Positions 24,969-49,486 of a stretch of DNA of 64,000 nt are shown here, in pieces. Location of the stretch: positions 247,523 to 311,522 of the forward strand of contig JAEUPP010000024.1 in NCBI GenBank assembly GCA_016790075.1, read 5' to 3'. The position numbers and the translations under genes are program-made. The notes under the pieces were generated by a model. It had not been told where the DNA came from. It made no database searches and was given only the letters and a program-made list of their open reading frames with translations. The stretch comes from Rhodanobacteraceae bacterium. Lineage in GTDB: Bacteria; Pseudomonadota; Gammaproteobacteria; Xanthomonadales; Rhodanobacteraceae. The first letter of the stretch is position 1, and the number at the start of each line of letters is the position of its first letter.

Positions 24969-24983
24969 GCCCTAAAGTAATAC

Positions 24984-26836: not shown

Positions 26837-27496
26837 TCAACCACCCGCCCCAACCGCCTCAAGCATCTCCGCAACAACCTCTTTAACCGGCGCGAGCCCA
26901 TGCAACTTGCGCCAGTCACCAGTCGCATCGTTACCAACAATAATCAGATTCATATGATTCTCCGGCGCATCCGCATACTGGCCAATGCGGCGCAGCGCCG
27001 CCGTGACTTGTGCACTAGTGCCGCTGAGAAAATGCCAGCCGGGTTTTGCCTGCACGCGGCGCGCATAGTCGGCCAGCACCAGCGGCGTGTCGTGATCCGG
27101 GTCGACGGTGATGGAGACGATTTGCACGTCCTTGCCCAGCCGTGGACCCAGTTGCTTCTGCAGCGCTTGTAGTGTCGTCATCATTACCGGGCAGCTGCCT
27201 TCGCAGCGGGCGAAGAAGCTGTGCAGCACGATGTGCTGGCCGGCGATGTAGTCCTTGTACAGGTCGACGGTCTTTCCGTTCTGGTCGATCAGCGGCAGGT
27301 CGGCCAGGTAGATGGCGGCGCCGTTGCGGCGTTCACCAGCATCTGGCGCCGTGATTGCTGGAGCCTTGTCCGTGGAAACGCCGGCAGCGTTGCCAGCGGG
27401 CATACCGCCGGCCGCTGCTGCAGCCGCCACGGTGAGGGCGATGGCGGCGGCGAGGCAGCGTAGAGGTCGCAGGAGCGGGATCACGCGTTTTTCCAC
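26837..27496 (-). CDS. Sco1/SenC-type copper chaperone (copy 1)
   Basis: 219 aa from a GTG at 27496, with an N-terminal membrane helix or signal (CLAAAIALTVAAAAAAGG). The thioredoxin-like Sco domain has the copper-binding CEGSC motif in FFARCEGSCPVMM, the SITVDPDHDTP strand and the third ligand His in ENHMNL. Sco proteins carry copper to Cu centres (classically CuA of cytochrome oxidase) or act as thiol reductants. Last gene of the minus-strand operon led by the giant multicopper oxidase, 94 bases after the preceding gene, so its client is probably that oxidase. Confidence 0.9.
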   Translation of the reverse strand: MEKRVIPLLRPLRCLAAAIALTVAAAAAAGGMPAGNAAGVSTDKAPAITAPDAGERRNGAAIYLADLPLIDQNGKTVDLYKDYIAGQHIVLHSFFARCEGSCPVMMTTLQALQKQLGPRLGKDVQIVSITVDPDHDTPLVLADYARRVQAKPGWHFLSGTSAQVTAALRRIGQYADAPENHMNLIIVGNDATGDWRKLHGLAPVKEVVAEMLEAVGAGG

Positions 27497-27590: not shown

Positions 27591-29297
27591 CTACGGCACC
27601 AGTTCGACCGCACCGGTGGCCGGATTCAGCCAGTACTGCTCCGGCACGCCGCCATAGGCGATCTGCTGCTGGTTCTTCTGGAACAGCTGCATGGTCGGGA
27701 AGATCAGGCGGAAACCGGGCTCGAAGATCTGTCCTTGCGGGTGCTGCGAAATTTGGGCCTGGTAGACCGCGATGCGGCGGCCGGCGAGCAGGCGCACAAA
27801 ACCGTTGACCGACAGCTGCACCTTGGCCAGGGTCTGTACGCGCGTCAGGATCTGCTTGACCTGCTTGCGATGCCATTCGGGCGTGCGTGCGGCATCGTTC
27901 ATATTGGCCAGCAATTCCTTGGCCGCCGGCCTGTCGCTGTTGGCCAGGGCCTGGCTGAAGCGGTTACGCCAGTCGGGCGTGGGGCCGCCACCGGGAACCA
28001 GCTGCAGCAGGCCGCAGCGCTTGGGTGAGAACATGGGCCGGGTCGGATCGACGGCGAGTACGTCGTAGAGGAATTTCTCGTCGATCAGGCCGGAGGCGAC
28101 CATCTTCTGCGCCAGTAGCATGTCGGTATGCGACTTGACCGGTGTCTCGAACGCATGGTCGGCGTCGATCTGGTTGATTGGCTGCACCGAGTTCTGGAAA
28201 TTGCCACTCTGGTAGTCGAAGAACTGCGCCTGGAACAGGTTCAGTGAATTCGTATACAACGCCTTGTCGATCTCGATGTAGCGGATATCACCGGCCAGAC
28301 GCTGGTCGACGAAGGCACCGACCGGCGCCTTGATGATCTGCGCCGAGCTTTCGAACGGCAGCAGATCCGAATCGAGATTGACTTCCTGTTCGCAGAAGAT
28401 GGGCCGCAGCTGCTCCTGCAGTGACAGCGCCGAACGTTGTTTCATATAGGCCGGCGACGAGGCCAGCTTTTCGTTGCCGGCCTTGATCCAGCTGGAGAAT
28501 TCCTGCGAGCTGACCAGGTTGTCGATAATCGTCACGTATTCCGGCGCTATACGCATGGCGCCCAGCGGCAGTGGCCGTTCCGGCCGCCACCAGGAATCGT
28601 GCGGGAAGGCCAGTTCCTTCATGATCGGCCCGCCATTCATATGGCAGCCGGAGCAGCGCAACCGTGGCAGCGTGGCCTTGCCGCTGCTGTCGAGCGGGCC
28701 CATGAAGATGGGCTGGGACGGATCGTAGCCGCGCCAGAGATTGGCGATATCGGCCTGGATGTCGGCCGAATCGCCGCGGTAGAACCACTGCCCGCCCTGG
28801 CCGGTGCCGCGAATTTCGTAAAAGTTATACATCTGCTTGCGCGGATCCCAGACCAGGGTTTCCAGCAGCAGGTTGTCCGGTGTCGCTGCCTGCTGCGGCG
28901 ACAGGATGCTGGTCAGTGCGGTGTTGTCGATGGACGCCGCCGTGAAGTGGCCGTAGAACCAGTCGCCGGGCACGAGTTTCTGGTTCGCGTAGCTGCCGTC
29001 GATGGACTCGAAGAAGCTGAAGCTGCCCTGCGGCAGCGGATTGTGGAAGCCGCGGTTGGCGACCATGGACGGGCGCGAGCTCATCTTGTTGGCCAGCACC
29101 AGGTTGCGGAATTCCAGCGCATTGCCCGGACAGCGCGGCTGGGCGCTGAGCAGCTTGAACAGCGCATCGTCGTGGGCGTCGGGCGGCAATACCTTGCCGG
29201 TGGTGTTGTTCTGGATCTCGCAGCGCGCTGCCGGTTCCGGCGCGGGCGTGGCCTGAGTGGCGGCGGTGGCCAGTAGTGCCGCAAGCAGCAATGTCAT
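27591..29297 (-). CDS. Exported protein with one CxxCH haem motif
   Basis: 568 aa with a signal peptide (MTLLLAALLATAATQATPAPEP). One haem-binding motif, RCSGCHMNGGP, lies near residue 215. The rest is not a standard cytochrome: an N-terminal beta-rich region (FESIDGSYANQKLVPGDWFYGHF), and a C-terminal helical part with repeated DMLLAQKMVASGLIDEKFLYDVL-like segments. Similar proteins are found in Bacteria with secreted redox operons, but no function is known to me. GGGGAA lies before the ATG. It is 76 bases after the 275-aa gene and belongs to the giant-oxidase operon. Confidence 0.75.
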   Translation of the reverse strand: MTLLLAALLATAATQATPAPEPAARCEIQNNTTGKVLPPDAHDDALFKLLSAQPRCPGNALEFRNLVLANKMSSRPSMVANRGFHNPLPQGSFSFFESIDGSYANQKLVPGDWFYGHFTAASIDNTALTSILSPQQAATPDNLLLETLVWDPRKQMYNFYEIRGTGQGGQWFYRGDSADIQADIANLWRGYDPSQPIFMGPLDSSGKATLPRLRCSGCHMNGGPIMKELAFPHDSWWRPERPLPLGAMRIAPEYVTIIDNLVSSQEFSSWIKAGNEKLASSPAYMKQRSALSLQEQLRPIFCEQEVNLDSDLLPFESSAQIIKAPVGAFVDQRLAGDIRYIEIDKALYTNSLNLFQAQFFDYQSGNFQNSVQPINQIDADHAFETPVKSHTDMLLAQKMVASGLIDEKFLYDVLAVDPTRPMFSPKRCGLLQLVPGGGPTPDWRNRFSQALANSDRPAAKELLANMNDAARTPEWHRKQVKQILTRVQTLAKVQLSVNGFVRLLAGRRIAVYQAQISQHPQGQIFEPGFRLIFPTMQLFQKNQQQIAYGGVPEQYWLNPATGAVELVP

Positions 29298-29373: not shown

Positions 29374-30201
29374 TCAGGCCGGCGGGAACAGCACCAGCAG
29401 GTCTTCTATGCCCAGCGTGTTGATAGGCACCGACCAGATCAGGTCGGGCGCCAGTTTGCGTTCGCTGAGCTGGCCCGTGCGCGGATCCACCTGTATACGC
29501 TGGGCGAACTCCAGCGGCTTGCCTTCCTTGAACGGCAAGGTGGAAAACTGCACTTCCCAGGGCTGCCGCCCGCCGAGCACGAAGCCGTGGGACACCTCGC
29601 AGTCGAGCACCGCGAGAATCTGCTTGCGTGTGTATTTTTCCTTCCTGATCAGATCGGCCAGGTTGTTCGCCATCGGCAGATCGAACGGCCGGTTGCGCGC
29701 GTAGATGAAGTGATCACCGGCAACAGAAAGGATTTCATGCACGCGCTGGCGGTTGTCGCCGAGGTTGCGCATGACCTTGATGCCGAGGAAATAGCCACCC
29801 GCATCTTCCAGCCGCCACCAGTGCTCCAGATAGACCGCCTGCACGCCGTGCTCGAACACGTTGCGGCCGCCGAGGATCTCGAAGCGGCCTATGTCGATGG
29901 AACCATCGGGCGGCTGGTAGTCGATCTCGTGATGCCAGGTGATGATGTAGCCTTCGTTCGTGGTGTAGCCGGAAAAGCCTTCCTGCGGATACAGCGTGGC
30001 CAGCTCCGCATTGCTCAGGTCGGCCAGCGAATGCGCATTCGGATAACTCGGCCTGTCCTTGGGAATGCGGCAGTCGCCGAACAGGGTCGGGGTCTGGATA
30101 TTGCGCACATTGACGGTGTTTTCCGGCGGCCCCTGGTTGTTGTTGATGACCCAGAGTCGCTCCCAGGACGCGGTAAGCCAGGGCGGTACAGGTGTGCTCA
30201 T
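29374..30201 (-). CDS. Conserved hypothetical protein in the giant-oxidase operon
   Basis: 275 aa from ATG 30201, preceded by AAGGAGCTGACC; a longer frame to 30294 would overlap the upstream gene. No signal peptide. Features: INNNQGPPENTVNVRNIQTP near the N-terminus, NEGYIITWHHEIDYQPPDG, and a C-terminal QFSTLPFKEGKPLEFAQRI. The aromatic/His-rich middle (WHHEIDY, VYLEHWWRLED) might hold a metal site, but this is only a suggestion. Not recognised. It is 10 bases after the upstream lipoprotein gene. Confidence 0.7.
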   Translation of the reverse strand: MSTPVPPWLTASWERLWVINNNQGPPENTVNVRNIQTPTLFGDCRIPKDRPSYPNAHSLADLSNAELATLYPQEGFSGYTTNEGYIITWHHEIDYQPPDGSIDIGRFEILGGRNVFEHGVQAVYLEHWWRLEDAGGYFLGIKVMRNLGDNRQRVHEILSVAGDHFIYARNRPFDLPMANNLADLIRKEKYTRKQILAVLDCEVSHGFVLGGRQPWEVQFSTLPFKEGKPLEFAQRIQVDPRTGQLSERKLAPDLIWSVPINTLGIEDLLVLFPPA

Positions 30202-30211: not shown

Positions 30212-31756
30212 TTAGCGATTGCCCTGGTGCGCGCGGGATTTGCCAGCCTTGGGCTGCTGGGCGTTGTTGAGCAGGAAGGAATAGTCCGACGCATACGGGT
30301 TCTGCGCCGTGGCGGCGGTGCCGGCTGTGGCCGGGTTGAAGATCTTGGTGGTCTTCACCGGCTTGACGCTGGCGATGGCCGCCGAGGCATGGCAGTCCAG
30401 GCAGGTCAGGCTCTGCACATAGGTTTCCATCGTCGTATTGGCGACCGGTTCCTGGCTGGGGCCGGGTGACAGCTGCGGTGCCGGCAGCGGCGTGCGCGAG
30501 CCCGCGGCGATGGTCGTGTTCTGGTTCGACCACAGCGTGTTGACCAGCTCGTAGTTGAGGAATACCGAGTCCGGATTCTGCGGCTTGATCACCTGCTCCC
30601 AGACGTATTCGTTGAGGCCGACTACGTCGTTGTTCGGCCGTGTCGGGATATCGGTCTCACGCACGGCCTGGATCGGCGCGTTGAGCGGGTTCTTGCCGCC
30701 GTTGTAGGTGGCCGGGTTGGCGTTGACCGTGCATTTGTAATAGTCGGTAGCCGGATCGCAGTCCGGGTTGAAGTAGGTATACGGCGGCGAGAACTTGCCA
30801 GCCGCGACCTCGCTCCTGTTCGGCACATTGCGCTTGTGCTCGAACGTGGCCCAGATGAACTGCTGGCCCAGCGCCGTCTTGTGGATGATGTGCAGACCGA
30901 CCAGTCCGACGACGACGGTCTTGGGCTTCTGGCCCGGATAGGTCACGACGGCCTGGGAAATCTTGTAGTACGGCCAGTCCGCGGAGTTGGGCAGTTCCAG
31001 CCAGGCCGCCTTGGTCTCAATGGCGCCGACGCTGCCATAGGCCGCACTGGCCGCGGTGCCATCGGGCAGGCTGATGCCAGGCGAGACCACGAACTTCTGC
31101 TGCACATTGGCGTTGTACAACTTGTTCTGCACGATGTAGTTGTATTCGTCCTCGTTCATGCGGCGCTCGTACAGCGTGAGGATGCCGCTCTGCGCGGTCA
31201 GCCAGGGGCTGCCCTGCGAAGCCTGGCCTATCTCGCTGAGATCCAGCGTGGGCTCCGGTCCAATTTCCGATCTCATGCCCCCCAGCACCTTGACGCTGGG
31301 CGTACCACCGTAGCCGTCGTTCCACGGCCCCGGGTCCTTGGCATTGGCCAGGAACACCTGATCCGATTCCTTGTAGGTTTCCCATACCGTCGGGCGCTGG
31401 TCGTTGGCGACGCCGAACTGAGTGGCCGGAACACTGGTGTCCGGCTGGCCGCGCTGGGTCGAGGAAGCAATCCAGTTCAGCGCCAGGAACTGCTGCCAGG
31501 CAAAACAGTTGGCATCGGCCTGCCGGGTCAGCGCGAAATCCTTGGGCACGGTATAGCCGTATTGGCCCTGCGTGGACGAGACCAGGAACGGCGGTGCCAG
31601 GCAGTTGCTGGTCGTGCCCTTGGGGGCTTGGGCCGCTGCCGCGCTTTCCTTGCTCGCCGTGGCGTCGTCGGCGCGGTGTGTTTCACGGTTGCAGGCGACC
31701 AGGCTGATAGCAGCGGCCAGCAGGCTGAGGCCCAGTGTCGTTGTAGACAATTTCAT
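30212..31756 (-). CDS. Lipoprotein with a C-terminal CxxCH haem motif
   Basis: 514 aa. Start at 31756 fixed by GAGGAG 7 bases upstream. The signal MKLSTTTLGLSLLAAAISLVAC is a lipobox (LVAC), so the mature protein starts at Cys and is lipid-anchored, probably facing the periplasm or cell surface. The body is beta-rich with Trp/Tyr clusters. Near residue 455 SLTCLDCHASAAI provides a single haem-c site. It starts 10 bases after the previous gene. Likely an electron-transfer partner of the oxidase operon. Confidence 0.78.
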   Translation of the reverse strand: MKLSTTTLGLSLLAAAISLVACNRETHRADDATASKESAAAAQAPKGTTSNCLAPPFLVSSTQGQYGYTVPKDFALTRQADANCFAWQQFLALNWIASSTQRGQPDTSVPATQFGVANDQRPTVWETYKESDQVFLANAKDPGPWNDGYGGTPSVKVLGGMRSEIGPEPTLDLSEIGQASQGSPWLTAQSGILTLYERRMNEDEYNYIVQNKLYNANVQQKFVVSPGISLPDGTAASAAYGSVGAIETKAAWLELPNSADWPYYKISQAVVTYPGQKPKTVVVGLVGLHIIHKTALGQQFIWATFEHKRNVPNRSEVAAGKFSPPYTYFNPDCDPATDYYKCTVNANPATYNGGKNPLNAPIQAVRETDIPTRPNNDVVGLNEYVWEQVIKPQNPDSVFLNYELVNTLWSNQNTTIAAGSRTPLPAPQLSPGPSQEPVANTTMETYVQSLTCLDCHASAAIASVKPVKTTKIFNPATAGTAATAQNPYASDYSFLLNNAQQPKAGKSRAHQGNR

Positions 31757-31766: not shown

Positions 31767-33686
31767 TCAGGCGGCAGTGCTGGAAGCAGCCACGACCAGG
31801 AAGGCCGGGGCCGCGGTAAGTGCGCTGGAGAACTGCTGGCCGGCAGGCACGATGACGACACCGCGCACGCCGGCGGCGGACGTAGCGGACACGCTGACCG
31901 ACAGGTTCAGCAACTGGTTGACGCTGGGATAGGTATTGCCGGGAACCGCGTAGTTGACCGACGGATTGAACCCGGTCACTTGCGTGCTGACACTGCTGTC
32001 GATGCTGCCGTCGGCGTTCGTGAAGTAGACCGTCGGCCATTGCTCAGATGGCAGCGGCGTGGCACCGCTGGGCGCGGCATAGGTCAATGCCAGCGCGACG
32101 TTCTTCTCGCCGGGGTAAAGCGTAGGCGGAATGATGCTGGAGTTGCTGGCCAGCGACATGGTCACGCCCGAAGGTGTGTTGACGACGGTGCCGAAATAGG
32201 CGTCCCACACGTTCTGGAACAGGATCTGCAGCGGCTGCGCTTCGGTGACGACGGACGGAGAGGTGACGCAGGCCAGCGCCGGTGCCGGTTGTGGCGGCGG
32301 CACGATGGGCCGGCCGAACAGGGCTATTTCCAGCGTGGCCTGCACCTGCGAGCCGTATTCGATAGGCGCACCGGCGATCTTGATATCACCGACGGTGAAA
32401 CTCACGCCCGCGTCTATCCACGCCTGCGGAATCTGGAAAGCCGCGTGCAGGATGAAGGAACCCGGGAAACGCGCGCCGGTGATCTCGTCCGTGATGTGTT
32501 CAAAGCCACGGATGATGTGCCAGCAATCCGCTGCTCTGGCGCCGGGCGGCAGGTTCGGGTCAGCCGGCAGTTCGTACTGGGCGAAGCTCGGCATCTGGAT
32601 GTAGAGGCCGGGCGGATCGGCCAGGGAAATATTGGTTCCCGCACCGACGGCGAGATTGATGCTCTGGCCGATATGCGGATCGCTGTTGCGGTAGTTCTGG
32701 CCGTACTGGCCGCAGCAGATCAATGCCTGCGGGTCGGTATTGCCGGCGCTGCGCTGCACGGTAGCGCCGGCGCCCAGGCCCAGTTCCGTCTGCAGGGTAT
32801 TCGGCGTCGCGGTCAGGTGCATGGCGCCGCCGCTGCGCTGTGCCGGCGTACCGCTGCGTACGCAGATCGTGCCGGAGTTGAAGCGGTTCAGCGGGTTGTA
32901 GGCCGGGCGGTTGGTCTCCGGATCGATGACGGGCTGGCCACTGACCGGATCCAGCAGTTGCAGATCCGCCACCGTTACCGTGATCCACTGGTCCTGCGGT
33001 GCACCACTGTTGAGCGCCTGTTCGTAGACCGCGCAGACGCGTTCGGGGCTGATGCGCCACAGGGTCTGGAAGTACTCGGGGTTCTCGCAGGTGAAATCGA
33101 TGCGCGTGATCTTGTTCTGCGCATTGCGCACGACGGAGAACTCGCAGTATTCGTCCAGCCAGCCGCGCGGGCCATACGGGCCGTAGGGTTGCAGCTCGCC
33201 GCTCCAGTCGGCCTGTGGACAGCGCACCTCCGGGATCGGATAACGCGACAGCTCGCCAGTATCCGCCAATGCAAACAATGCACTTTGCGGCAGGTTGTAG
33301 GGGTTGGGCGGCAGCTGGTTCTGGCCCAGGTACTGGACCAGGCGGTTCGGAAACGCGATCCAGGCCACATCCACCGCGCCATTGCCCTTGGGAATCGGCG
33401 TGACCAGCGGGTTGTAGTAGGCCGTCTGCGCCTCGGCATACAGGGAGTTCCAGGGATTGCCGGTGATCGCCTGCTGGGTGAAGCCGTTGACGTTCTGGCT
33501 CCACAGTGCGGCGAGGCGGGCATAACTGGCCGGATCATCGGGGAAGTCGTTATTGCAGCCTGGCGTGGTGAAGGCCTGCAGCTGGTAGCTGTTGCTGGCG
33601 GGGTCAAACACGTAGTTCTGCTTTACGGGCGTCGCGGTGGCCTGCATCAGCGGATTGCTGCCGCTGCTTCCTGCGGTACTCGACAT
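31767..33686 (-). CDS. Large hypothetical protein, possible structural/secreted component
   Basis: 639 aa, GGGAG before the ATG, no classical signal peptide (MSSTAGSSGSNPLMQATATP). The N-terminal third has many Pro/Tyr/Asn motifs (NQLPPNPYNLPQSALFALAD). A middle segment has several Cys (RCPQADW, DEYCEF, FTCENPEY, VCAVYEQ, ICVRSG, LICCGQYGQ). The last 200 residues alternate hydrophobic and Ser/Thr as beta strands, ending in an Ala-rich tail. Not recognised. It is 20 bases from the beta-propeller gene and 10 bases from the lipoprotein gene, hence part of the operon; export could occur in complex with a partner. Confidence 0.68.
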   Translation of the reverse strand: MSSTAGSSGSNPLMQATATPVKQNYVFDPASNSYQLQAFTTPGCNNDFPDDPASYARLAALWSQNVNGFTQQAITGNPWNSLYAEAQTAYYNPLVTPIPKGNGAVDVAWIAFPNRLVQYLGQNQLPPNPYNLPQSALFALADTGELSRYPIPEVRCPQADWSGELQPYGPYGPRGWLDEYCEFSVVRNAQNKITRIDFTCENPEYFQTLWRISPERVCAVYEQALNSGAPQDQWITVTVADLQLLDPVSGQPVIDPETNRPAYNPLNRFNSGTICVRSGTPAQRSGGAMHLTATPNTLQTELGLGAGATVQRSAGNTDPQALICCGQYGQNYRNSDPHIGQSINLAVGAGTNISLADPPGLYIQMPSFAQYELPADPNLPPGARAADCWHIIRGFEHITDEITGARFPGSFILHAAFQIPQAWIDAGVSFTVGDIKIAGAPIEYGSQVQATLEIALFGRPIVPPPQPAPALACVTSPSVVTEAQPLQILFQNVWDAYFGTVVNTPSGVTMSLASNSSIIPPTLYPGEKNVALALTYAAPSGATPLPSEQWPTVYFTNADGSIDSSVSTQVTGFNPSVNYAVPGNTYPSVNQLLNLSVSVSATSAAGVRGVVIVPAGQQFSSALTAAPAFLVVAASSTAA

Positions 33687-33706: not shown

Positions 33707-35497
33707 CTACTTGGCTTCGTAGATCAGGAATTGCCGGTGCCGGCGCGCCAGACCGAGGGTGTTGGACTCGATCCAGACGTAGTACAGGCCGGGCTGCGGC
33801 GGGGTGAAGGCGAGTTCGTAGCTGCCATCGCCACGTGCGGCCGGCGCACTGCGGCGCTGCCAGGTACCCGGGGCGAGCAGGGCCAAGGCTTGCAGATCGG
33901 TGCTTTCGCGCCGGGCGCCGTCGGCATCGAGCAAGGCGAAGCGCAGTTGCGCGGGCTGGCCAACCGCAAGTTCTGCCGGTGGCGCCAGGGCAACTACCCG
34001 CGGCACAGCTGGCCGGGGCGCGGTGTCAGCCAGCGTGAACGGGAAACAGACGGCCAGCCGCGGCGAATCGGCAAACAGGGCCACATCGTAGGTGCCGGGC
34101 CTGGTGACCGGCATGCGCGTGCTGTATTCGCCACGGCGGCCCTCGCGCAGGCCGTGATCGACCACCAGCACGGCACGCGGCTTGCGGCCATAGGTGCGAA
34201 AGCCGCCAGCCGGTGCGGCCATGCCTTCGCGGTAGAGGTAGATCATCTTGTCGCTGGTATTGGCCACCAGCACGGCCGGACCTTCGGGCGCAGCGACGAT
34301 ACTGTCGGCGCCGTCTTCAGGTGCGGCGCCCAGGGCACTCTGGCCCGCAGGAAACTCGGCGACGTTCAGGGGCTTGCCCGCCTGGCCCAGCTGATCCAGT
34401 GCGATCATCTGCACGGTTTCGCTGTCGCGCCGGTGCACATAGGCCAGCAGCGGCGTGAAGCTGACCTGATCGGGGCCGCCGGAAATATCCGCGTTTTGCA
34501 CAATGGAATTGGTGGACGCATCCAGCACCTGCAGGCGATTGCGCTGCGGATTGGGCAGCAGGGCATAGCGGCCACCAGGAGCGAAGCGGATCTGACTGGC
34601 GCCGCTGTCGACCGTGATGTCGGCGCGCAGGCGGCGCTGTTTGGCGTCGACGACAAATACCCGGCCCTGCTCCATGTCCAGCGCATAAAAGGCCTGGGCC
34701 GCCTCCGACCAGGCCAGCCGTTGCGGCCGGCCATCCAGCGCAATGCTGCCGATGCGGCGCCCATCGTGCGCATCAACGATCAGCAGGCTGTCGCCTACCG
34801 CAGCGGCCAGGTGCTCGCCATGCCCGTCCAGCGCAATGCCGCTGGCCTTGCCCAGTGGCAGCGCCTGCGTGGCCAGGCTGCGCTTGTCGATACGCGTAAG
34901 CCCTGCATCGTCCGCGACCCAGACCTGGGCGGCGTTCTGCAGCAGCTGGCGCGGATTCGGCCCGGTCGCGACCTGCGCCGTCACACGCCAGCCGCTGGTA
35001 TCGGCCACGGCCACCTTGTTGGCCAGGGGCTGCGACACGAACAGGCGATCGCGCTCGGGCGTGAGCTGCCAGTCGGCGCCGGGTTTTTCCAGCTCCAGCA
35101 GGGCCAAGAGCTTGCTGCCGCCGAAACCGAACAGCGGGTCGACCACGCTGATCGAGGCTTCGTCATTCATGGCCAGCACGAAATAGCTGTTCAGATCGAC
35201 GTCTGCGCGGCGAAACAGATCACCGGCGAGATAACCGGCGATCTGCCGCTTGCACTCAGCCGCCGGCTTGGACGGATCACGGCGCAGCCCCAGCCAGGCG
35301 GCCGGACGCAGGCCACTGAGCGGGCGTCCGCTGGTGCTGTCGATCAACCCGAAGCGGAATGCGGTCGCGTCCCCCGGCTGCGCGCCGGCCTGCGCATCGA
35401 AAGTGACGCGTATGCCCTGGTCCAGCACCTGCTGCGGCGGCGCCGCTTGCGCGACACCAGCCGGCAGCAGGGCCAGGGCGAACAGCCATGTCCTCAT
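33707..35497 (-). CDS. Secreted YVTN-type beta-propeller protein
   Basis: 596 aa with a signal peptide (MRTWLFALALLPAGVAQA). Residues about 150-410 contain repeated blades of the type 'NRLQVLDASTNSIVQNADIS', 'GRVFVVDAKQRRLRADITV', 'DSLLIVDAHDGRRIGSIAL', as in YVTN beta-propellers. The last 170 residues resemble an Ig/Big-like domain (GQPAQLRFALLDADG ... SYELAFTPPQPGLYYVWIES). Its ATG overlaps the stop of the giant oxidase by four bases, so the two are translationally coupled and may form a 1:1 complex. Propellers of this type often bind partner proteins or metals at the cell surface. Confidence 0.78.
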   Translation of the reverse strand: MRTWLFALALLPAGVAQAAPPQQVLDQGIRVTFDAQAGAQPGDATAFRFGLIDSTSGRPLSGLRPAAWLGLRRDPSKPAAECKRQIAGYLAGDLFRRADVDLNSYFVLAMNDEASISVVDPLFGFGGSKLLALLELEKPGADWQLTPERDRLFVSQPLANKVAVADTSGWRVTAQVATGPNPRQLLQNAAQVWVADDAGLTRIDKRSLATQALPLGKASGIALDGHGEHLAAAVGDSLLIVDAHDGRRIGSIALDGRPQRLAWSEAAQAFYALDMEQGRVFVVDAKQRRLRADITVDSGASQIRFAPGGRYALLPNPQRNRLQVLDASTNSIVQNADISGGPDQVSFTPLLAYVHRRDSETVQMIALDQLGQAGKPLNVAEFPAGQSALGAAPEDGADSIVAAPEGPAVLVANTSDKMIYLYREGMAAPAGGFRTYGRKPRAVLVVDHGLREGRRGEYSTRMPVTRPGTYDVALFADSPRLAVCFPFTLADTAPRPAVPRVVALAPPAELAVGQPAQLRFALLDADGARRESTDLQALALLAPGTWQRRSAPAARGDGSYELAFTPPQPGLYYVWIESNTLGLARRHRQFLIYEAK

Positions 35498-38400
35498 TGC
35501 CGCGGCAACCGCTTGGGCCGGTTGGGAATGGTTTCTGGCGCTGGTGTCTTGCTTCCGGCGCGCAAGGCATCCGGCTCGCTCTCACCGGCATAAGGCGGAC
35601 GTGTATCGCCCCAGCGGGCAACGCCGCCTGCGGGAGAGCGCACCTCGAAGGCTTCGGGCAAGCTGCGGGGCGCGACCAGACTCCAGCGCCCGCCAATGAC
35701 CGCTGCCCTGCCCGCATTGCCGATCTGGACCTGGCGCACACTTCCGCCGGCTTCGCAGACGCGGCGGCCGGTGGCATCACTGACCGCGACCGGGCAGGAC
35801 GTCACAAATCCACGAATCAACTTTCTTCCATTGGGCAAAGTTTCCACCGCATCGATGCCCACCGTATCCGGCCAGGCCGGTCCGCCCGCCTGCGGCGTCC
35901 AGGGCGCGACGCGGAACAGGCCCCAGGCCCCGGCCTGGAACATGTTCGCGGTCCAGCCACGGTAGAGGTAGTCGCCGGGCACACGGAAGCGGCCACCGGA
36001 CGGGGTCGAGCCCGGTGTCTCGTCCAGCACCACGTCGTAGACGCTGGCTGCACCATAGCCGGTCAGGGTGCTGACCGTGGCCGACTTGGGGTTATGCCCT
36101 ATGCGCGTGGAATTGGCCGTATAGGGTTCTTCCTGCCACAGATGGCCGGTCAGCTCCCAGGTGATCTGATTGTCGCCATCGCCGCCGGGCATCAGCAGGC
36201 GCACCCGCGCCGGCATGCCGGCCGGTGCCCGCAGGATGGGCGTCTGTGGTTCAGCGCCGACCAGTTGATTGGCCGTGGTCCGCGTTTCGTCGACCAGCGA
36301 CATGGGCAGCAGCGAGATATTGTTCAGATCCTGCTGACTGAGGTTGCGCCAGTCCTTGGGGGCATCAATACCCATGGCGCTGGTGAGCTCCGTGCCGAAG
36401 CGCAGCCAGGCCGGTTCCGAACGGTAATTGAAGCCGGCCAGCGGATTGCCGGTTTCCCACCAGGAATGGCCGTTGGTCAGCATGTTCGCGTCGTTCTGGT
36501 ACATCAGCACGAATTCGCGATAGACCTTGTCACCGGCCCAGACCGTGGCCTGCGCCTGCGTGGTCGGATCGGGCTGCCAGCGCGAGCCAGCGGGCTCGAT
36601 CACCAGCGCACCGAACAGGCCGTGATAGATCTGCATCAGCGGGTCGGACGGCATCAGGTTCAGCGGCCCGAATTCCACCGGTGTCTGGACCGCCCCGTCG
36701 ATGCTGCCGGCGTACCACCAGTACTCGACGCGGCCACCGGGCGGTGCGGTCTGCACCGGGTTGGCGCCTACGCTGGCGCCGTCGCTGGTGCGCAGGTCGT
36801 AACTCAGCAGTTGGGCATGCAGGCCGACATTGGGCGAAGGCGCGATCTGCACGAAGTTGTAGGGCGAGGCATAGGTGAGACCAAAGCGCGAGGCCGCTTC
36901 ATAGGCCGAGAAAGCCGGCTCCTGGCCGCTGAAGGTGTTGACCAGGGTGAGGTGAATCCAGTCACCCGCATTGGCACGCAGCACCAGCGGCTCTACCGTG
37001 TCGCGCGGCGTGTGCTTGCCGCCCTTGGGAACCGCGACATAGACCAGGCCCAGCGGATCCTGCAGCGGATGGGCGGTATCGCTACGCCCGTTGCCGAGAT
37101 TGACGCCACGGCTGTTGTAGACCAGCGCCCCGTCCTTGCGGCCCAGCGCCTGCTGCACCGTCATCGCATGCACTTCGTATTCGCGGATGCAGGGCTTGCC
37201 GCCCGTGCAGTCGGTGGTCATACCCGGCGGCGGGCCGAGCGCGTCGGCACGTGCCGCGGCCGGTTCCTCATACAACGGCTTGAGGAAAGGCTGGCGCTGC
37301 GTGGTGTTCCAGGAGCGCAGCAGGCCCCAGGCGCCGTTGGTCAGGCCTTCATACGAGGCATCGGGGTTGTAGAGATAGTCGACCGGCCCCTTGGCATCCA
37401 GCCGCGGCATACGCATCAGCAGTTCGTAGTGCTCAGAAAGAATGATGAACTGCGTGCTGCGGTAGCCCGAATCCGGCTCGAAGGGCTCGGCCAGCCAGCG
37501 CAGGCCGTGCATGGTGAAATCGTGCATCGAGGTGTGCGCACCGGCGAGCAGGCGGATCTGCACCTTGTCGCCTTCGTAGGCCTGCAGCAGCGGCGTATAC
37601 GGGTCGGTCGGCCCCATGCCGGCAGCAATCGGGTCACGCGGGAAGGTGAAGCAGCCGCTGCCGCTGCACATGGGATTGATCTGCGCGCCACCGGTGGGCT
37701 GGCGCGAGAAGGCCGGATCCAGCCGCTGTATCGAGCGGAACGATGCGGAAAGATCTGCCGCATCGGGGGCTGCCGCCGGATTCGTTACCAGCGGCTTGTA
37801 CACACGCAGCGGCAGCGGCTCGCCGCGGTAGTTCATCGAGATCATGCCGGCACCGAAGTCGGAGACCAGCAGCGGCTGCGGTGGCCAGGGTGCTGCGCCC
37901 GGCAGGTTGGGAATCAGCGACTGCGGCAGCTGCGCCGTGGGCTGCGGCGGGCAGTTGAGGCAGTTGAGCACATGCGCCGGGTCAGACCAGCCGTAGTAGC
38001 TCTGGTTGGCCGCCAGCGGAATGCAGTTGAAATCGGGCGGGCGCTGTTCAACGACCTTGCCGTCCGGGTCGGTATAGCGGTAGCAGTCCGGCCGGTGCCG
38101 GCTGCCGGCGGTATACGCATGCTGGGTATCACCCCATTCCAGCGCGAACTCGCGATAGTTGTCGGCTTGGTCCGCCGGGGCCTTGAACAGGATATTGGCC
38201 GCGTAGCTCGTCGGGCCGCCGTCGTCGCGTACGCCGAACGGGGTCTTGCCATCCAGCGAGGTCCAGGTCGTGTCAGCCGGCTCGATCAGCAGACCGCCGT
38301 AGAGACCTATCATCTGGTGGGTGGACGGGCCGAAATGATCGTGCGTGAACACGGTCATGTAGGTGCGGTCCTTGGCATTGACCGCCGCAGGCTGCTGCAT

Positions 38401-41112
38401 CAGCGGGTCCAGCCACCAGCGCTGCACGGTGGCCTGGGCACCGACCCAGGCGCGGCTTTCGCCACCAGGGCCATTGCCCAGTTCGGCGATAGCCTTGGGA
38501 TGCAACAGGCGCTGCTTGCGCCGCGCCGGATCCCACAGGCCGCCGGTCTTGTTGATGCCTTCGATGCGCTCGCGCACTTCCTCGGGACTGAAGGTGCCGT
38601 CCTCGTAATTGAAGCCGTTGGCGGCACCATCGGAAGCCATCACATCGAACTTCACCAGGTGAATGTGCTGGCCGAGTATGTCGGTAGGTGTACGCACCTC
38701 GAAGTCATCGAGCTCGAAATAGGCCGGCACCAGGTTGGTATGCCAGTACTCGATCACATCGTTGTTATGCGCGCGGAAGAACAGCGGTTCCGGCGGGCGG
38801 CGGCCTTCGACGTAGTCCTTGACATCGCCCCAGAGTGACAGGATGCGCTGCTGCGGATAGTGCCAGCCAGCCTTGTTGAACACGGCATCCAATTGCAGAT
38901 TGGCGCCTTTGTAGCGGCGCACCTCGTTGCCCACCGCCTTGCCGTCGACCACGGCCGGATCGGAGAACGGCGCACCCGGCTGCGGGCCACGCGGCAGGCC
39001 GTTGACCTTGAACGGCGCCGGCTGGGCTTCCGGTGTATAGCTCGCATGCTGCGGCTTGCCGAAGAAGGCCATGGCGCGTTTTTCCGCGGCCGTACCGTCT
39101 TCGGGCAGTTCGTAGGCCTTGATCGTGTGCAGATCCTTGGACCAGTCCAGCGCCGTGTGCTGTTCGTTCGCAATCGTCGCGTCACTGATCAGATGGCGCG
39201 GCAGACCGCCGTCCAGGCGTTCGCCGGTTTTCCGGTCGACGGCGAAATCCAGCGGCGGATGTGGCGGCCTGTGTCCGGCCACGCCGGGCACAAAGAACGG
39301 AAAGCCCGGATGGCCGTCGCCCTCGACCTGGGCCTGGCCGTCGACGATACGCACCTTGGCCGGCAGCGGCGCCATCGCATACTGCGGCAGCGGCACGACG
39401 GCGGGGATAGGGGTACCGCGCTGGATCTCCCCGTCCGGCAACGCGCGCGCGTCGGGGCGCGGGCGGCCGTCCGCATCAAGCACCGTGCCGCCCTCGAACA
39501 CATCGTGCACGCGGTACAGCGCCCACATGCCAGCGGCGAAGTGTGGATAGAAATGGCAGTGGAATATCGAATCGCCGGTCGTGAGGTTGCGGTTGCCGCT
39601 GCCGCCGAACACGAGTTCAGCAGTGAAGGACGAGCCCGGACCTATGGCCTGGGAATCGAGGTAGTTGCTCTGGCTGGTCTCGGGCGAGCGCAGCCACTGG
39701 TGCGCATGGTGGTGATGCACGTGATGCACGGCGGCGCCGGAATGCAGCACGCGGAAGCGAACGTGGTCGCCCAGGTAGGAGTGATAGACGTTGGAAGGAT
39801 CGTCCGGATAGAACGCCTTGCTCGCCTTGCGCCCCGGCTTCGGCTTGCAGGGATTGACGGGCTCGAAGGTCAGCGGGTTGGCGTCAAACTTGACCGTAAG
39901 ATCCTGCAGCTCTGCCGTGGTGCACGGCGCGTTGGCCGGCACGTCGACAACCAGAGCCGGATCACCGATGGCCCAGGAACTCAGGAAGAACTCCTCGAAC
40001 TTGCACTCCGGACAATCGGCCGCCGGCCCTACGCCGATACGGTTGGCCAGCACCTGCGGTGCAATGCCCCCTATGCCGTAGTTGATCGCAAACGAGTCGG
40101 CGCCCGCGTCCTCGCGCGGCACCTGGCTGTTCTTGGCCGACATGAATTCGGGAAAGGCCTGCACCACGTCCTGCGACTCGTGGTAGATCACCGTCACTTC
40201 GCGGAACGGGCGATTGCGTTCCGGCAGCATGGGGTTGTCGCCGGCCGGTATGGTCAACGGGCCACGGCCCGGGCCGGTGATCAGCGCGGTCAGATCCGTG
40301 TGCACGATACGGTTGTCGCGATCGAGCATGCGCAGTATCGGCAGACCCGCGCGGGCATGGCCGGGCGGATAGACGGCTTCATAGTCGATACGGGGATGGC
40401 CTGACGGCAGCGTTCCATTGCTGGCCAGGCGCAGGTCCTCTTCACTGACCTGACTGCGGTACCACTCGCTGCCGCGCAGCTGCACGTTGACCGCGCCGAA
40501 CAGGCCGGTGGACAACTGCATTTCATTGAAATTGTTGTACTGCCCAGCCGTGCTGTAGAGGAGATTGGTTCCCTCCTCCTGCGCATAGAGCCGGTAGGTA
40601 ATGCTGACACCCGGCTGCACCAGGCCGGAATGCTGGCCGTTGCCGATTTCCGGATTCTGCCCCACCCAGGTGCCGTCGCTGGCTATGGTGTCTATGGGCT
40701 GCAGGCCAGCCACATGGATGGACGCCGTGCGTGTGACCGGCTGCAGTACGTCCTTGGGCGTAGGCGCCAGCAGATTGGTAAAGCGGATCTCCAGGCAACT
40801 GCCGGCATTGACCCGCAACACCAGCGGCCGCGGACGCTTGTCCGGCCGCAACATCACCTTGCCGGGCTTGAGATCGGCACTGGCCTCGTCGGTGGAGACC
40901 ACGTCGGCACGCAGCGCGTAGATCTCACCGTCCGTGCGCGTAGTGCCCAGGCGATTGACCTGGAATGCATGGTCCAGGGCGACCACATCGGCCTGCACGG
41001 TGCCATCGCAATGTCCACGCGCCGGCACCTCGGCCGCCTGCGTAGGTGATGTGCTAAGTGCCGGAATCAACAGAGCAAAGGCATACGACCACGAACGCAA
41101 CGGCAAACGCAT
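35494..41112 (-). CDS. Giant secreted multicopper oxidase (MnxG/MofA-like candidate)
   Basis: 1872 aa with a Sec signal (MRLPLRSWSYAFALLIPALSTSPTQA). Several cupredoxin domains are visible. Copper-site motifs: HHVHHHHAHQW near residue 465; the full type-1/trinuclear motif IFHCHFYPHFAAGMW near 517 (HCH, H and Met ligands); THDHFGPSTHQMIGLYGG near 925; AHTSMHDFTMHGLRW near 1195; further GLFG/GLYGG cupredoxin ends near 205, 940 and 1500. The HCH block lies before the HDH block, an order different from ordinary three-domain laccases. Very long multicopper oxidases of this kind include the bacterial manganese oxidases MnxG and MofA, and Sco and cytochrome genes as neighbours fit that; other substrates such as Fe(II) or phenols cannot be excluded. 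It leads a seven-gene operon. GCGAGG precedes the ATG. Confidence 0.85.
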   Translation of the reverse strand: MRLPLRSWSYAFALLIPALSTSPTQAAEVPARGHCDGTVQADVVALDHAFQVNRLGTTRTDGEIYALRADVVSTDEASADLKPGKVMLRPDKRPRPLVLRVNAGSCLEIRFTNLLAPTPKDVLQPVTRTASIHVAGLQPIDTIASDGTWVGQNPEIGNGQHSGLVQPGVSITYRLYAQEEGTNLLYSTAGQYNNFNEMQLSTGLFGAVNVQLRGSEWYRSQVSEEDLRLASNGTLPSGHPRIDYEAVYPPGHARAGLPILRMLDRDNRIVHTDLTALITGPGRGPLTIPAGDNPMLPERNRPFREVTVIYHESQDVVQAFPEFMSAKNSQVPREDAGADSFAINYGIGGIAPQVLANRIGVGPAADCPECKFEEFFLSSWAIGDPALVVDVPANAPCTTAELQDLTVKFDANPLTFEPVNPCKPKPGRKASKAFYPDDPSNVYHSYLGDHVRFRVLHSGAAVHHVHHHHAHQWLRSPETSQSNYLDSQAIGPGSSFTAELVFGGSGNRNLTTGDSIFHCHFYPHFAAGMWALYRVHDVFEGGTVLDADGRPRPDARALPDGEIQRGTPIPAVVPLPQYAMAPLPAKVRIVDGQAQVEGDGHPGFPFFVPGVAGHRPPHPPLDFAVDRKTGERLDGGLPRHLISDATIANEQHTALDWSKDLHTIKAYELPEDGTAAEKRAMAFFGKPQHASYTPEAQPAPFKVNGLPRGPQPGAPFSDPAVVDGKAVGNEVRRYKGANLQLDAVFNKAGWHYPQQRILSLWGDVKDYVEGRRPPEPLFFRAHNNDVIEYWHTNLVPAYFELDDFEVRTPTDILGQHIHLVKFDVMASDGAANGFNYEDGTFSPEEVRERIEGINKTGGLWDPARRKQRLLHPKAIAELGNGPGGESRAWVGAQATVQRWWLDPLMQQPAAVNAKDRTYMTVFTHDHFGPSTHQMIGLYGGLLIEPADTTWTSLDGKTPFGVRDDGGPTSYAANILFKAPADQADNYREFALEWGDTQHAYTAGSRHRPDCYRYTDPDGKVVEQRPPDFNCIPLAANQSYYGWSDPAHVLNCLNCPPQPTAQLPQSLIPNLPGAAPWPPQPLLVSDFGAGMISMNYRGEPLPLRVYKPLVTNPAAAPDAADLSASFRSIQRLDPAFSRQPTGGAQINPMCSGSGCFTFPRDPIAAGMGPTDPYTPLLQAYEGDKVQIRLLAGAHTSMHDFTMHGLRWLAEPFEPDSGYRSTQFIILSEHYELLMRMPRLDAKGPVDYLYNPDASYEGLTNGAWGLLRSWNTTQRQPFLKPLYEEPAAARADALGPPPGMTTDCTGGKPCIREYEVHAMTVQQALGRKDGALVYNSRGVNLGNGRSDTAHPLQDPLGLVYVAVPKGGKHTPRDTVEPLVLRANAGDWIHLTLVNTFSGQEPAFSAYEAASRFGLTYASPYNFVQIAPSPNVGLHAQLLSYDLRTSDGASVGANPVQTAPPGGRVEYWWYAGSIDGAVQTPVEFGPLNLMPSDPLMQIYHGLFGALVIEPAGSRWQPDPTTQAQATVWAGDKVYREFVLMYQNDANMLTNGHSWWETGNPLAGFNYRSEPAWLRFGTELTSAMGIDAPKDWRNLSQQDLNNISLLPMSLVDETRTTANQLVGAEPQTPILRAPAGMPARVRLLMPGGDGDNQITWELTGHLWQEEPYTANSTRIGHNPKSATVSTLTGYGAASVYDVVLDETPGSTPSGGRFRVPGDYLYRGWTANMFQAGAWGLFRVAPWTPQAGGPAWPDTVGIDAVETLPNGRKLIRGFVTSCPVAVSDATGRRVCEAGGSVRQVQIGNAGRAAVIGGRWSLVAPRSLPEAFEVRSPAGGVARWGDTRPPYAGESEPDALRAGSKTPAPETIPNRPKRLPRQ

Positions 41113-41508
41113 GGCTCACCTCGCAAATGGCAAAGCTGGTGGCTGGCTTGATAACTTGTCTACAAGTTGCGGGCTGGACAATACCCGATTTGCAAAACTT
41201 TTGAAGTCCCGTCCAGCATCAGCCGGGGCCGGCGATCTGGCACGCTCACCGATACCCGGGCGCAAGCGCACCAGCCGCCGGAACCAGCGGCAACTGGCGT
41301 TCCCTGGCCTTGCTTTTCTCCGGACTCCCCAGTCAGAAGTGCACTAGTTCATGGCTTGCACTGATAGGCGCAAAACGCGGCGTACGCCTATCATGAAATT
41401 TCGGCATTGCTGCCATGTGGCCAAAACACTGCAAAGTATCTTCAACCGCGGTTGCCTGCGGGCAACCAGCGGGCTAAGTTCACCGCTGCTGGCAACCGGG
41501 ATGCGTTT
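41113..41508. other. Divergent promoter region of the oxidase and Sco operons
   Basis: 396 bases with no gene. It must contain the start sites of both operons. On the minus strand TTCAAA, 16 bases, TATTGT (about 41207-41180) is a weak promoter candidate for the oxidase gene, and the palindrome at 41153-41168 would lie just downstream of it. Confidence 0.45.
41153..41168. promoter_or_regulatory. 16-bp palindrome, candidate operator
   Basis: AACTTGT (41153-41159), CT, ACAAGTT (41162-41168): perfect 7-bp arms, 41 bases upstream of the oxidase start, in the divergent control region. It resembles operators of dimeric MarR/TetR-size regulators. No regulator gene is adjacent. Confidence 0.45.
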
Positions 41509-42126
41509 ATGGGCAAGAGCTTATGGCGGTCTGCAGGACTGCTGCTCACGGCAATCGGCATGCAGGCGTACGCACAAGATCATGCGGCGCATCTGGCGCA
41601 GGCCGCCGAACAGGCACAGTCGCTGCAGGGCCAGACCGCAGCCGGCCGCATCGCCGATATTCCCGTGCAGGACCAGTCGGGCCGCCCGCTGCATTTCCAT
41701 CGCGATCTGGTGCAGGGCCGGCTGGTTGCGATCAATTTCGTCTTTACGCGCTGCACCACGGTATGTCCGCTGCTGGGCGCGCGCTTTGCCCAGATACAGA
41801 AGCGGCTGGGTGATGATGCCGACCGCATAGCCCTGATCTCGGTCAGCATAGATCCGGTCAACGACACGCCGCAGGAGCTGGCCCGCTGGAGCCGCGCCTT
41901 CGGTGCCGCCCCGGGCTGGAGCCTGGTCACGGGTACCCGTGCGGACATCGACCAGCTGGCGCGTTCGCTGGGCGCATCCGCCGCCGATCCTGCCTCGCAT
42001 GTTCCGCTGGTACTGCTGATCGATGAACGCGGCAAGCCAAGGCCCTGGCAACGGCTGGACGGCCTGGCTGACGCCGCCGTGCTGACCACGGCGCTGCGTG
42101 AAGCCGTGGCGCGTCCGGCAGAATGA
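41509..42126 (+). CDS. Sco1/SenC-type copper chaperone (copy 2)
   Basis: 205 aa, starting MGKSLWRSAGLLLTAIGMQAYA, a signal peptide; the longer frame from 41407 lacks a reason. The Sco domain has NFVFTRCTTVCPLLG with the CxxxC copper site, the SVSIDPVNDTPQEL strand and the His ligand in DPASHVPLVLL. The start of the mature protein (QDHAAHLAQAAEQAQ) carries two His. It overlaps the next gene by four bases (ATGA), forming a coupled pair, and is divergent from the giant-oxidase operon, which already contains one Sco gene. Two different Sco proteins may serve the type-1 and trinuclear copper sites, or one may act as reductant. Confidence 0.9.
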   Translation: MGKSLWRSAGLLLTAIGMQAYAQDHAAHLAQAAEQAQSLQGQTAAGRIADIPVQDQSGRPLHFHRDLVQGRLVAINFVFTRCTTVCPLLGARFAQIQKRLGDDADRIALISVSIDPVNDTPQELARWSRAFGAAPGWSLVTGTRADIDQLARSLGASAADPASHVPLVLLIDERGKPRPWQRLDGLADAAVLTTALREAVARPAE

Positions 42127-43280
42127 GTCTGCCCGCCCTGCTTGTCGCAGCGCTGCTGGCCCTGCAAGGCAGCACGGGCTCGGCCGCAGGCGGTGAACAG
42201 ATTTTCCGTGCGGGAGTCTCGCCGCGCGGCACCCCCATCATCGCGACCATGGGCGCCGGCGACGCTGTACCGGCTAACTTGCTGCCGTGCCAGAACTGCC
42301 ACGGCAGCGACGGCCGCGGCCGCCGCGAAGGCGGTGTGCAGCCTGCCGATATCAGCCCGGCCGCATTGCGGCGGCCATTGCAGAGTGAACGCCGCCAGCG
42401 TCCGGCTTACGACAGTTCACGCCTGCGCCGCGCCATCACCATGGGCGTGGATGCGGGCGGCCAGCCGCTGGATACCGCCATGCCGCGTTATGCCCTGAGC
42501 CTGGCCGATGCGGACGATCTGCTGGCGTATCTGGCGCAACTGGACGAGCAGCAGGAACCCGGAGTAACCGCAGAACATCTGCGTATCGGCGTACGCGGCG
42601 CGGCGCTGACTGCGCCGCCGCAGGAAATCTACGGCCGGCGCGTAGAGCTCGTGGCCCTGTCCCGCCCGCCCGAACCCGGCGACAACCTGCTGCTGCTGAT
42701 CGACGCCAGCACTGAAGGCGATGACAGTCTGACCGCGGCAGCCGCTGATGAACTGCCGGCCATCGTATTCGCAACGAACCGCTCCGACCCGGGCCGCAAC
42801 GGCTTTGTCATCACCGCCGCACCCGCGACACGGCAGCGCGCGCTGGAAACCCTGGCCACGTCCGTACCGGCGCCGCTGCTGCTGCAGGACTGCCGCGACG
42901 CCGCGGCATTGACGGCCGCCCACACGCTGCTGCTGACCGACCGTGTTGCCGCCAGCTGCGAACTGCAGCGACTGGCCTGGCCCGCCGGACTGAGCCTGCG
43001 CATCGCCTTGCCCGCACCACCGGAGGCAGCATTGCGCCAGGCCGTGGCGGAACAGACACTAGCCCTGGCCGTCACGCTGCTGCAGCGAGCCGGCCGCGAG
43101 GTAAGCCGTGCGGCCCTGGTCGCACAGCTGCAGACGGGGCGAGAATTTTCACTGGGTGCCTTGCCCGCACTGCATTGGAATGCAACCCGGCGTTACGGGC
43201 TGGATCAGGTCTGGCTGTTGCGGCTGGACCACCCGGATGGCCGCCTGGTGCCGGCGCCGGGCTGGATGGCGGTGCAGTAG
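42123..43280 (+). CDS. c-type cytochrome fused to a second periplasmic domain
   Basis: 385 aa with a signal peptide (LPALLVAALLALQGSTGSAAG). Residues about 22-140 are a class I cytochrome c: LLPCQNCHGSDGRGRREGG with the CxxCH haem site, MGVDAGGQPLDTAMPRY with the axial Met, and the last helix DADDLLAYLAQL. Residues 150-385 form an alpha/beta domain of unknown role (LLLLIDASTEGD, LPAIVFATNRS, LLLQDCRDAAAL) reminiscent of a periplasmic-binding-protein fold, ending ATRRYGLDQVWLLRLD. Coupled by overlap with the Sco gene. A cytochrome next to a giant multicopper oxidase is also known from mof-type loci, which supports an electron-transfer role. Confidence 0.82.
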   Translation: MSLPALLVAALLALQGSTGSAAGGEQIFRAGVSPRGTPIIATMGAGDAVPANLLPCQNCHGSDGRGRREGGVQPADISPAALRRPLQSERRQRPAYDSSRLRRAITMGVDAGGQPLDTAMPRYALSLADADDLLAYLAQLDEQQEPGVTAEHLRIGVRGAALTAPPQEIYGRRVELVALSRPPEPGDNLLLLIDASTEGDDSLTAAAADELPAIVFATNRSDPGRNGFVITAAPATRQRALETLATSVPAPLLLQDCRDAAALTAAHTLLLTDRVAASCELQRLAWPAGLSLRIALPAPPEAALRQAVAEQTLALAVTLLQRAGREVSRAALVAQLQTGREFSLGALPALHWNATRRYGLDQVWLLRLDHPDGRLVPAPGWMAVQ

Positions 43281-48909: not shown

Positions 48910-49309
48910 GGGAGTCCGCCTGATTCAGGGCGTTGAGGATAGGGCAAGCTTCTGCCCGCCCCTGTCCTGGGCAAGCTGTGATCAGCGCGTGCAATCCCTG
49001 GCGAATACGCATGAGCTCGGCGATGCGCTGGTCGACATCAACCAACTTGGCCGTTGCAGTCCGCTTTACCTGCGCAACGTCTGCTGATTCGCTGAGGGTG
49101 AGCAGGCTGCGGATGTCCTCCAGCGTGAAGCCCAGCGCCTTGGCGCGCCGGATGAAATGCAGGCGCTTGAGCTCGGCCTCGCTATAGCGCCGATAGCCTG
49201 AGGCAAGCCGTGATGCCGGTGAGAGCAACTGCCCGCGTTCGTAGTAACGCACGGTATCGATCGCGACACCGGCGCGCCTTGCGAGTTCGCCAATACTGAA
49301 TGTTGTCAT
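48899..49309 (-). CDS. MerR-family metal-responsive regulator
   Basis: 136 aa, GGAGG before the ATG at 49309. N-terminal winged helix-turn-helix [21 protein letters not shown]-type opening, then the dimer helix ([22 protein letters not shown]). The metal loop at the C-terminus is [16 protein letters not shown], with two Cys 9 apart. CueR-type Cu(I) sensors have a similar CPG..CPI loop with two Cys 8 apart, and PbrR/ZntR/CadR-type sensors have others, so the metal is uncertain; copper is favoured by the neighbours. It activates by distorting a promoter with an extended spacer, which is present just upstream. Confidence 0.9.
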
Positions 49310-49329
49310 TGCTCGCCTCCGATGAAGGG

Positions 49330-49361: not shown

Positions 49362-49486
49362 TATCCAAGCGCATACGCCGTGCGCGACGCTGCCAGTGAA
49401 AGCCCTGTGCGCTACGGAGCACCGGCAACACACCGGGCCAAGCGCTCGTGTTTTCGCTTGAAACTTTTTCGGGCTCTGCGCAATCT

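Follow-up and report, generated by a model that had tools for sequence, protein, structure and literature searches.

Which substrate does a multicopper oxidase of 1872 residues act on, and which of the genes around it does it work with? The question is posed by a reading frame in the window, that is the whole stretch of 64,000 nucleotides that was analysed. The frame has an ATG start and an N-terminus that looks signal-like by eye; when the window was shuffled 20 times by mononucleotide, no stop-free run was longer than 374 codons. The initial annotation described an exported 1872 aa multicopper oxidase with four copper regions and an HCH-x3-H-x4-M block, and both the reading frame and the motifs are confirmed here.

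Copper ligands and motif order

The four copper motifs are HVHHHHAHQWL (residues 464–474), HCHFYPHFAAGM (residues 518–529, which corresponds to HCH-x3-H-x4-M), HIHLVKFD (residues 816–823) and HDHFGPSTHQ (residues 924–933). The ligands that they provide are H464, H467 and H469, H518, C519, H520, H524 and M529, H816 and H818, and H924 and H926. This is a complete type 1 and trinuclear set: in 86 aligned family rows, all 12 of the 12 ligand columns contain either the expected residue or a gap (no gapped row at three columns, one at five and three at four). The ligands of the trinuclear centre, on which the initial annotation depends, are thus all present by alignment. The assignment of the individual histidines to copper type 1, 2 or 3 follows laccase motifs and is to be taken as our assumption.

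A profile built from 46 rows and covering residues 34–1010 matches two-domain laccases and similar copper oxidases in the PDB at about 1e-11. Such laccase-type entries make up most of the matches other than MnxG and run through the stretch around motifs 1 and 2. Profile positions 384–475, which contain these two motifs, align with the C-terminal part of two-domain laccases (chain residues ∼170–305), and hence the laccase-type C-terminal copper motifs precede the N-terminal ones here. The motif order is therefore indeed unlike that of laccases, as originally proposed. The same permuted order is found by alignment in a homologue from Priestia and in two of the proteins closest to the MnxG model (L114 and L115, see below). 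An ordinary three-domain laccase was considered and rejected: the only Cu-oxidase Pfam family touched is PF07732, with 20 bits against a cut-off of 21, and the motifs are permuted.

Relation to MnxG

The NCBIfam MnxG model NF041487 matches the oxidase over its whole length, with model positions 1–1893 covered in four pieces and E values down to 2.2e-147. The score of 1119.3 bits lies far under the cut-off of 3100. With the single sequence as query, MnxG (PDB entry 9bxa) is the sole PDB match at E values up to 1 (6.7e-79), and it is by far the best match of the 46-row profile (2.7e-116). At the level of sequence, the kinship with manganese oxidases that had been suggested at the outset is firm. 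Bacillus MnxG, from the MnxEFG complex (PDB entry 9bxa; PMC5622069), shares the permuted copper motifs and detectable homology, but the 9bxa chain has 1227 aa compared with 1872 aa in the window. Bacillus Mnx reportedly requires the small subunits MnxE and MnxF.

Next to these matches, 82 proteins were placed in a rapidly calculated likelihood tree, with SH-aLRT values rather than bootstrap as support and with the short rows L057, L106, L107 and L112 excluded. The tree is rooted on a Priestia plasmid protein on a long branch, which by its matches is probably a relative of Bacillus-type MnxG. The window oxidase groups with those of Tahibacter caeni, T. aquaticus and T. harae and then with Pseudolysobacter, followed by further lineages that include Massilia horti and an acidobacterial MAG. 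The nearest protein is that of T. caeni (93% over the tree columns). The window oxidase falls in a clade of 12 rows that is nested in a clade of 35 rows, each with a support of 100. The tree contains no Pseudomonas, MofA, McoA, CotA or laccase sequences, and L114–L116, the Anaeromyxobacter protein L073 and the NCBIfam model serve as stand-ins for Pseudomonas MnxG. These four proteins are nearest to the MnxG model, with one-piece NF041487 scores of 2414 bits (L114) and 2183 bits (L115), 1156 bits for the best piece of L116 and 2344 bits for L073, and they group in another clade than the window oxidase. Members L042, L043 and L067 of the 35-row clade score 1106–1186 with the same model.

On its sequence, the window oxidase is a member of the MnxG superfamily and not Pseudomonas-type MnxG itself: because the cut-off is missed and the clade is separate, it would be a relative of MnxG and not the same enzyme. 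The check by phylogeny called for in the initial annotation does not place it with a class of non-metal oxidases, which is a weak test in a tree without laccases, MofA, McoA, CotA and authentic Pseudomonas sequences. No member of a 369-genome sample of the class reaches the NF041487 cut-off, and a search of the order around genome G396, also aimed at Pseudomonas genomes, gave one in 24 and no new match. AlgF, searched for in the class sample with the same aim, was found in 0 of 369 genomes, and the controls were equally empty. No characterised member of the clade of the window oxidase was found.

By kinship we infer that the host is a Tahibacter species. A search of 99 genomes, made up of the host and its relatives, found the oxidase in eight; within the genus, four of eight genomes have it, the host included. 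In the portions of the literature on mnxG and Lysobacter and on Tahibacter and manganese that were available, no report on this gene was found. With cultivable Tahibacter species named as carriers, the substrate of an uncharacterised, phylum-spanning branch of the manganese oxidase superfamily becomes testable.

Gene set and the insert between propeller and Sco

The oxidase gene is the first of seven tandem genes on the minus strand (oxidase, propeller, m639, m549, orf306, g568 and Sco; Table 1), with gaps of −4, 20, 10, 10, 76 and 94 bp, the first being the overlap of the propeller gene with the oxidase gene. m549 carries a CLDCH and g568 a CSGCH motif. The reading frames and gaps bear out the seven-gene layout of the predicted operon: next to the oxidase it would comprise a propeller protein, two proteins with haem motifs, two of unknown type and a single Sco. 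Absent from the initial annotation are a second Sco gene and a gene for a cytochrome c protein, which overlap by 4 bp and diverge upstream of the oxidase gene. The second Sco is taken to start at an internal Met of the listed reading frame 41407–42126, m549 at Met36 and orf306 at Met32; given these internal Met residues, all three probably start later than the longest reading frame. In the stretch between the divergent units (41113–41508), neither a sigma-54-like site with at most two mismatches to the consensus used nor a sigma-70-like match was found, and promoter and terminator scans gave no more matches than chance.

Table 1. Features of the oxidase gene set; coordinates are those of the window.
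Feature	Position	Strand	Basis
Sco protein, seventh gene	26837..27496	-	PF02630, 3.3e-18
g568, insert gene 4, exported, one CSGCH motif	27591..29297	-	Motif in aligned homologues
orf306, insert gene 3, weakly HRI1-like, no signal peptide by eye	29374..30201	-	Alignment; PF16815
m549, insert gene 2, probably a lipoprotein with a single haem (CLDCH; LVAC resembles a lipobox by eye)	30212..31756	-	CXXCH alignment
m639, insert gene 1, no Pfam/NCBIfam match, no signal peptide by eye	31767..33686	-	Homologues elsewhere
Exported beta-propeller protein, 596 aa	33707..35497	-	Propeller-type family matches below cut-offs; homologue in 57 of 80 related loci
Giant multicopper oxidase, MnxG superfamily, 1872 aa	35494..41112	-	NF041487, PDB entry 9bxa, ligand alignment
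Intergenic stretch between divergent units, expected promoter region	41113..41508	.	Position
Second Sco, divergent	41509..42126	+	PF02630, 9.7e-19
Exported cytochrome c protein (CQNCH)	42123..43280	+	PF00034, 1.4e-06, 29.9 bits, cut-off 21.3

The core of this gene set is conserved. Of 80 related loci, 57 have the propeller, 51 Sco, 46 the cytochrome and 45 all three, which are lower bounds because contigs end early and single-sequence BLAST was used. When only the 51 loci that extend 8 kb or more downstream are counted, the corresponding numbers are 46, 38, 37 and 36, and five loci have none of the three. A similar set has been described. The putative mnxG operon of Pseudomonas putida GB-1 consists of mnxG, a YVTN propeller, two SCO genes, an ABC-binding protein with a cytochrome c domain and a SurA domain protein; the same set is found in two further Pseudomonas strains (PMC11409713) and in strain OF001 (PMC8218464). 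In GB-1, deletion of mnxG makes Mn removal about tenfold slower, deletion of both mnxG and mcoA abolishes it, and the deletion strains identify MnxG as the main Mn oxidase (PMC11930936). By annotation both systems have a giant exported multicopper oxidase as first gene, together with a propeller of the YVTN type, a pair of Sco proteins and a cytochrome c protein, where equivalence of the genes is by name and order. In the window, however, the genes are split into two divergent units and contain a four-gene insert, and the oxidase scores far under the NCBIfam cut-off and does not share the clade of the proteins nearest to the model. GB-1 mnxG is reported with a sigma-54 site, whereas none was recognised upstream of the window oxidase with up to two mismatches to the consensus used. 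No SurA-domain match occurs among the 17 window proteins scanned. The Leptothrix MofA system (mofABC; PMC8218464) resembles the present one by description in having a large multicopper oxidase in an operon with a cytochrome c gene, but mofB encodes a mip-type protein, for which the 17 scanned window proteins give no match.

The proposal that the combination of genes is undescribed is therefore only partly right: the operon core is already known from GB-1, and only the four-gene insert between propeller and Sco, the proteins of which are unnamed, was not found described. As far as could be searched, the separate clade and the apparently exchangeable insert are what is new. The CXXCH motif is kept in all ten aligned m549 homologues and in three of six g568 homologues. 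For orf306 the link to HRI1 is weak: PF16815 matches two of four family members (best E value 0.035), the window's own protein not among them, and a distant relative reaches 0.0041, below the cut-off. Profile searches of the PDB with the orf306, m549, m639 and g568 alignments gave nothing better than an E value of 0.13.

The distance from propeller to Sco can be measured in 43 loci, and in 33 of these it is at most 329 bp (counting reading frames that overlap). The gap is 6.4 kb in both T. aquaticus and T. harae, where m639–m549–orf306–g568 fills it. In T. caeni the same four genes followed by Sco are on a separate contig that starts inside m639, while the oxidase contig ends in the propeller. 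A Massilia horti contig reads propeller–m639–m549–Sco–Sco–cytochrome, which is the GB-1 order plus insert genes 1 and 2, and it ends in the propeller; the oxidase, although on another short contig, probably adjoins it. A betaproteobacterial MAG has Sco–cytochrome–m639–m549 and an oxidase fragment with 81% identity on another contig, and a MAG labelled Kuenenia (a doubtful label) has all four insert genes around the oxidase. The assembly of the latter (locus L092, genome G529), labelled Candidatus Kuenenia stuttgartiensis, perhaps wrongly, has two copies of m639.

m639 is present in six of the 48 oxidase-bearing genomes searched compared with three of the 369 class-sample genomes (host included, and with a match in one of them that is short and weak); as the two samples are not matched for kinship, this enrichment is suggestive only. 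The genome-wide m639 search covered 50 of the 80 related loci (48 genomes) and left out T. aquaticus, T. harae, the Pseudolysobacter MAG and others, such that T. caeni is the only Tahibacter in this count. Loci L028–L030 and L033 repeat other genomes and were excluded from the cluster analysis. The m639, m549, g568 and LodA profiles match their own source sequences by construction, and those homologues rest on tblastn and clustering.

In four loci of the 12-row clade that also contains the window oxidase, a different gene occupies the place after the propeller. It encodes a protein of 1230–1308 aa, and all four (Massilia frigida, L040, L041 and L046) fall in one BLAST cluster. Of these four proteins, only that of M. 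frigida was scanned with Pfam; it has LodA_N and LodA_C domains and an iron-containing redox enzyme domain. These LodA-type quinoprotein genes are located at 17288–21007 in L038, where the redox-domain fusion is seen, at 17169–21095 in L040, at 17448–21140 in L041 and at 17556–21395 in L046. In two further loci (L094 and L095), a gene of the LodA type precedes the oxidase on its upstream side. Undibacterium (L042), also in the 12-row clade, has no insert and a propeller–Sco gap of 18 bp, and profiles detect neither filler in the 3–5 kb gaps of L044, L066 and L083. A precedent for LodA-type and copper oxidases in a single operon exists, as LodA-like genes are reported to share operons with tyrosinases and multicopper oxidases (PMC4417212). 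The multicopper oxidase described there has pfam07731 and pfam07732, whereas the window oxidase only touches PF07732 below its cut-off, and the LodA gene is found in the sister operons but not in the window operon.

Homologues of the insert genes also recur away from giant oxidases, and none was seen beside them on the plasmids described here. On a Paracoccus denitrificans plasmid, m639 and m549 homologues follow a tyrosinase. An m639 homologue precedes a DyP-type peroxidase on Nostoc and Mycetohabitans plasmids and in the Bradyrhizobium diazoefficiens genome; in these three distant bacteria it lies directly before the peroxidase gene (L145, 6962–9714; L167, 6674–9360; L182, 5818–9643). A Bradyrhizobium barranii plasmid has g568 and m639 homologues near a LodA/GoxA oxidase, with an m549 homologue ∼9 kb before, and on an Azospirillum argentinense plasmid g568 and m639 homologues are found inside one annotated protein with a GMC oxidoreductase downstream. 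On plasmids, m549 homologues adjoin GMC oxidoreductases, and one is located after a molybdopterin-binding protein. The m639 and m549 homologues are adjacent on the Sinorhizobium sojae plasmid NZ_CP023068.1 (L166, 9001–10494). No evident oxidase neighbour was seen in Vibrio, Gloeothece, Rhizobium, Microvirga and genome G441, nor among the Pyxidicoccus neighbours scanned, and the plasmid search found no orf306 homologues. The m639/m549 module, which has no Pfam or NCBIfam match, is found repeatedly next to oxidases that use copper, quinone, haem or flavin.

Substrate and partners of the oxidase

On sequence grounds this member of the MnxG superfamily is probably an exported metal oxidase that most likely converts Mn(II) to Mn(III/IV) oxide with O2 as the acceptor. 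Mn(II) as the substrate is a best guess from family and operon. It is favoured by the end-to-end match to the MnxG model, MnxG as the sole PDB match, the 12 ligands and the GB-1-like gene set, and it is weakened by the missed MnxG cut-off, the separate clade, the lack of a sigma-54-like site and a negative Tahibacter isolate. This single isolate, the gene content of which is not given, gave a negative result when spot-tested for Mn oxidation (0 of 1; PMC7734401).

That same isolate, and the clear separation of the clade (support of 100) from the proteins nearest to the MnxG model, would also suit a clade with another substrate, for example Fe(II) or phenolic organics, in which Mn oxidation is minor or absent. 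Organic substrates are further suggested by the LodA-type quinoprotein in sister operons and by the insert homologues beside tyrosinase and DyP peroxidase. We nevertheless regard this as rather unlikely: kinship extends over the full length, the gene set is held in common with MnxG, and in the tree the clade is flanked by the Priestia outgroup on one side and the proteins nearest to the P. putida model on the other, which makes a common substrate the simpler assumption if those proteins oxidise Mn. A role in copper homeostasis, with the enzyme acting as a cuprous or copper-detoxifying oxidase, fits as well in so far as a copper gene set starts ∼3.2 kb beyond the cytochrome gene (46492–53225: what we read as a copper-type P-type ATPase and a MerR-type regulator, with a CopL family protein, a CopA-like multicopper oxidase and an efflux protein of the outer membrane) and two Sco genes are present. 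Yet this cluster has an ordinary multicopper oxidase of its own (51828–53225) and lies past two unrelated genes, and the gene set of the giant oxidase is that of MnxG, which together make the copper role very improbable.

It is doubtful, though a reasonable possibility, that the four insert genes (m639, m549, orf306 and g568) are passengers, or that they form a separate, unrelated redox unit which came to lie in the operon by chance. Their homologues often occur without a giant oxidase and on plasmids, several have no evident oxidase neighbour, and propeller and Sco are adjacent in most of the measured loci. Against this, m639 and m549 are found, in varied orders, among genes of the Mnx type in Rhodanobacteraceae, Massilia horti, the betaproteobacterial MAG and the Kuenenia-labelled MAG, m639 is the more frequent in the oxidase-bearing genomes (with the unmatched kinship of the samples in mind), and the recurrent neighbours are oxidases or peroxidases. 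Going one step further, we put forward, tentatively and as something that may well prove wrong, that MnxG-type operons possess an exchangeable slot between propeller and Sco for a second redox module, either the LodA fusion or m639 with the haem lipoprotein; the oxidase would then be part of a machine of paired oxidases, and oxidases and peroxidases in general would have m639/m549 as a partner module. If so, the giant oxidase does not act alone, and metal oxidation could be coupled to peroxide or haem.

For an Mn(II) oxidase, the reaction would take place outside the inner membrane. The type 1 copper would take electrons singly from Mn(II), and the trinuclear centre would reduce O2. The Sco proteins would help to load copper into the oxidase, and the propeller, possibly a structural or surface partner, would assist it together with the cytochrome. 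The inserted haem lipoprotein m549 would, with m639, be a redox accessory of a type that works with different oxidases elsewhere, and the pair is a tangible starting point for asking what giant oxidases require in addition to copper.

Some other genes of the window border on the gene set. Directly after the cytochrome gene, a 321 aa protein is encoded (43389–44354, plus strand) of which residues 20–87 match the Pfam delta-endotoxin N-terminal family (E value 1.2e-07); it has no BLAST match in the related loci. A right-handed beta-helix protein with a NosD match follows at 44943–45842 (plus strand). Just downstream of the operon, the stretch 22009–25910 (minus strand) encodes a protein of the AbiTii family (PF18864, 2.4e-50) and a HEAT-repeat-like one, matches DUF4062 weakly, and may be a defence island.
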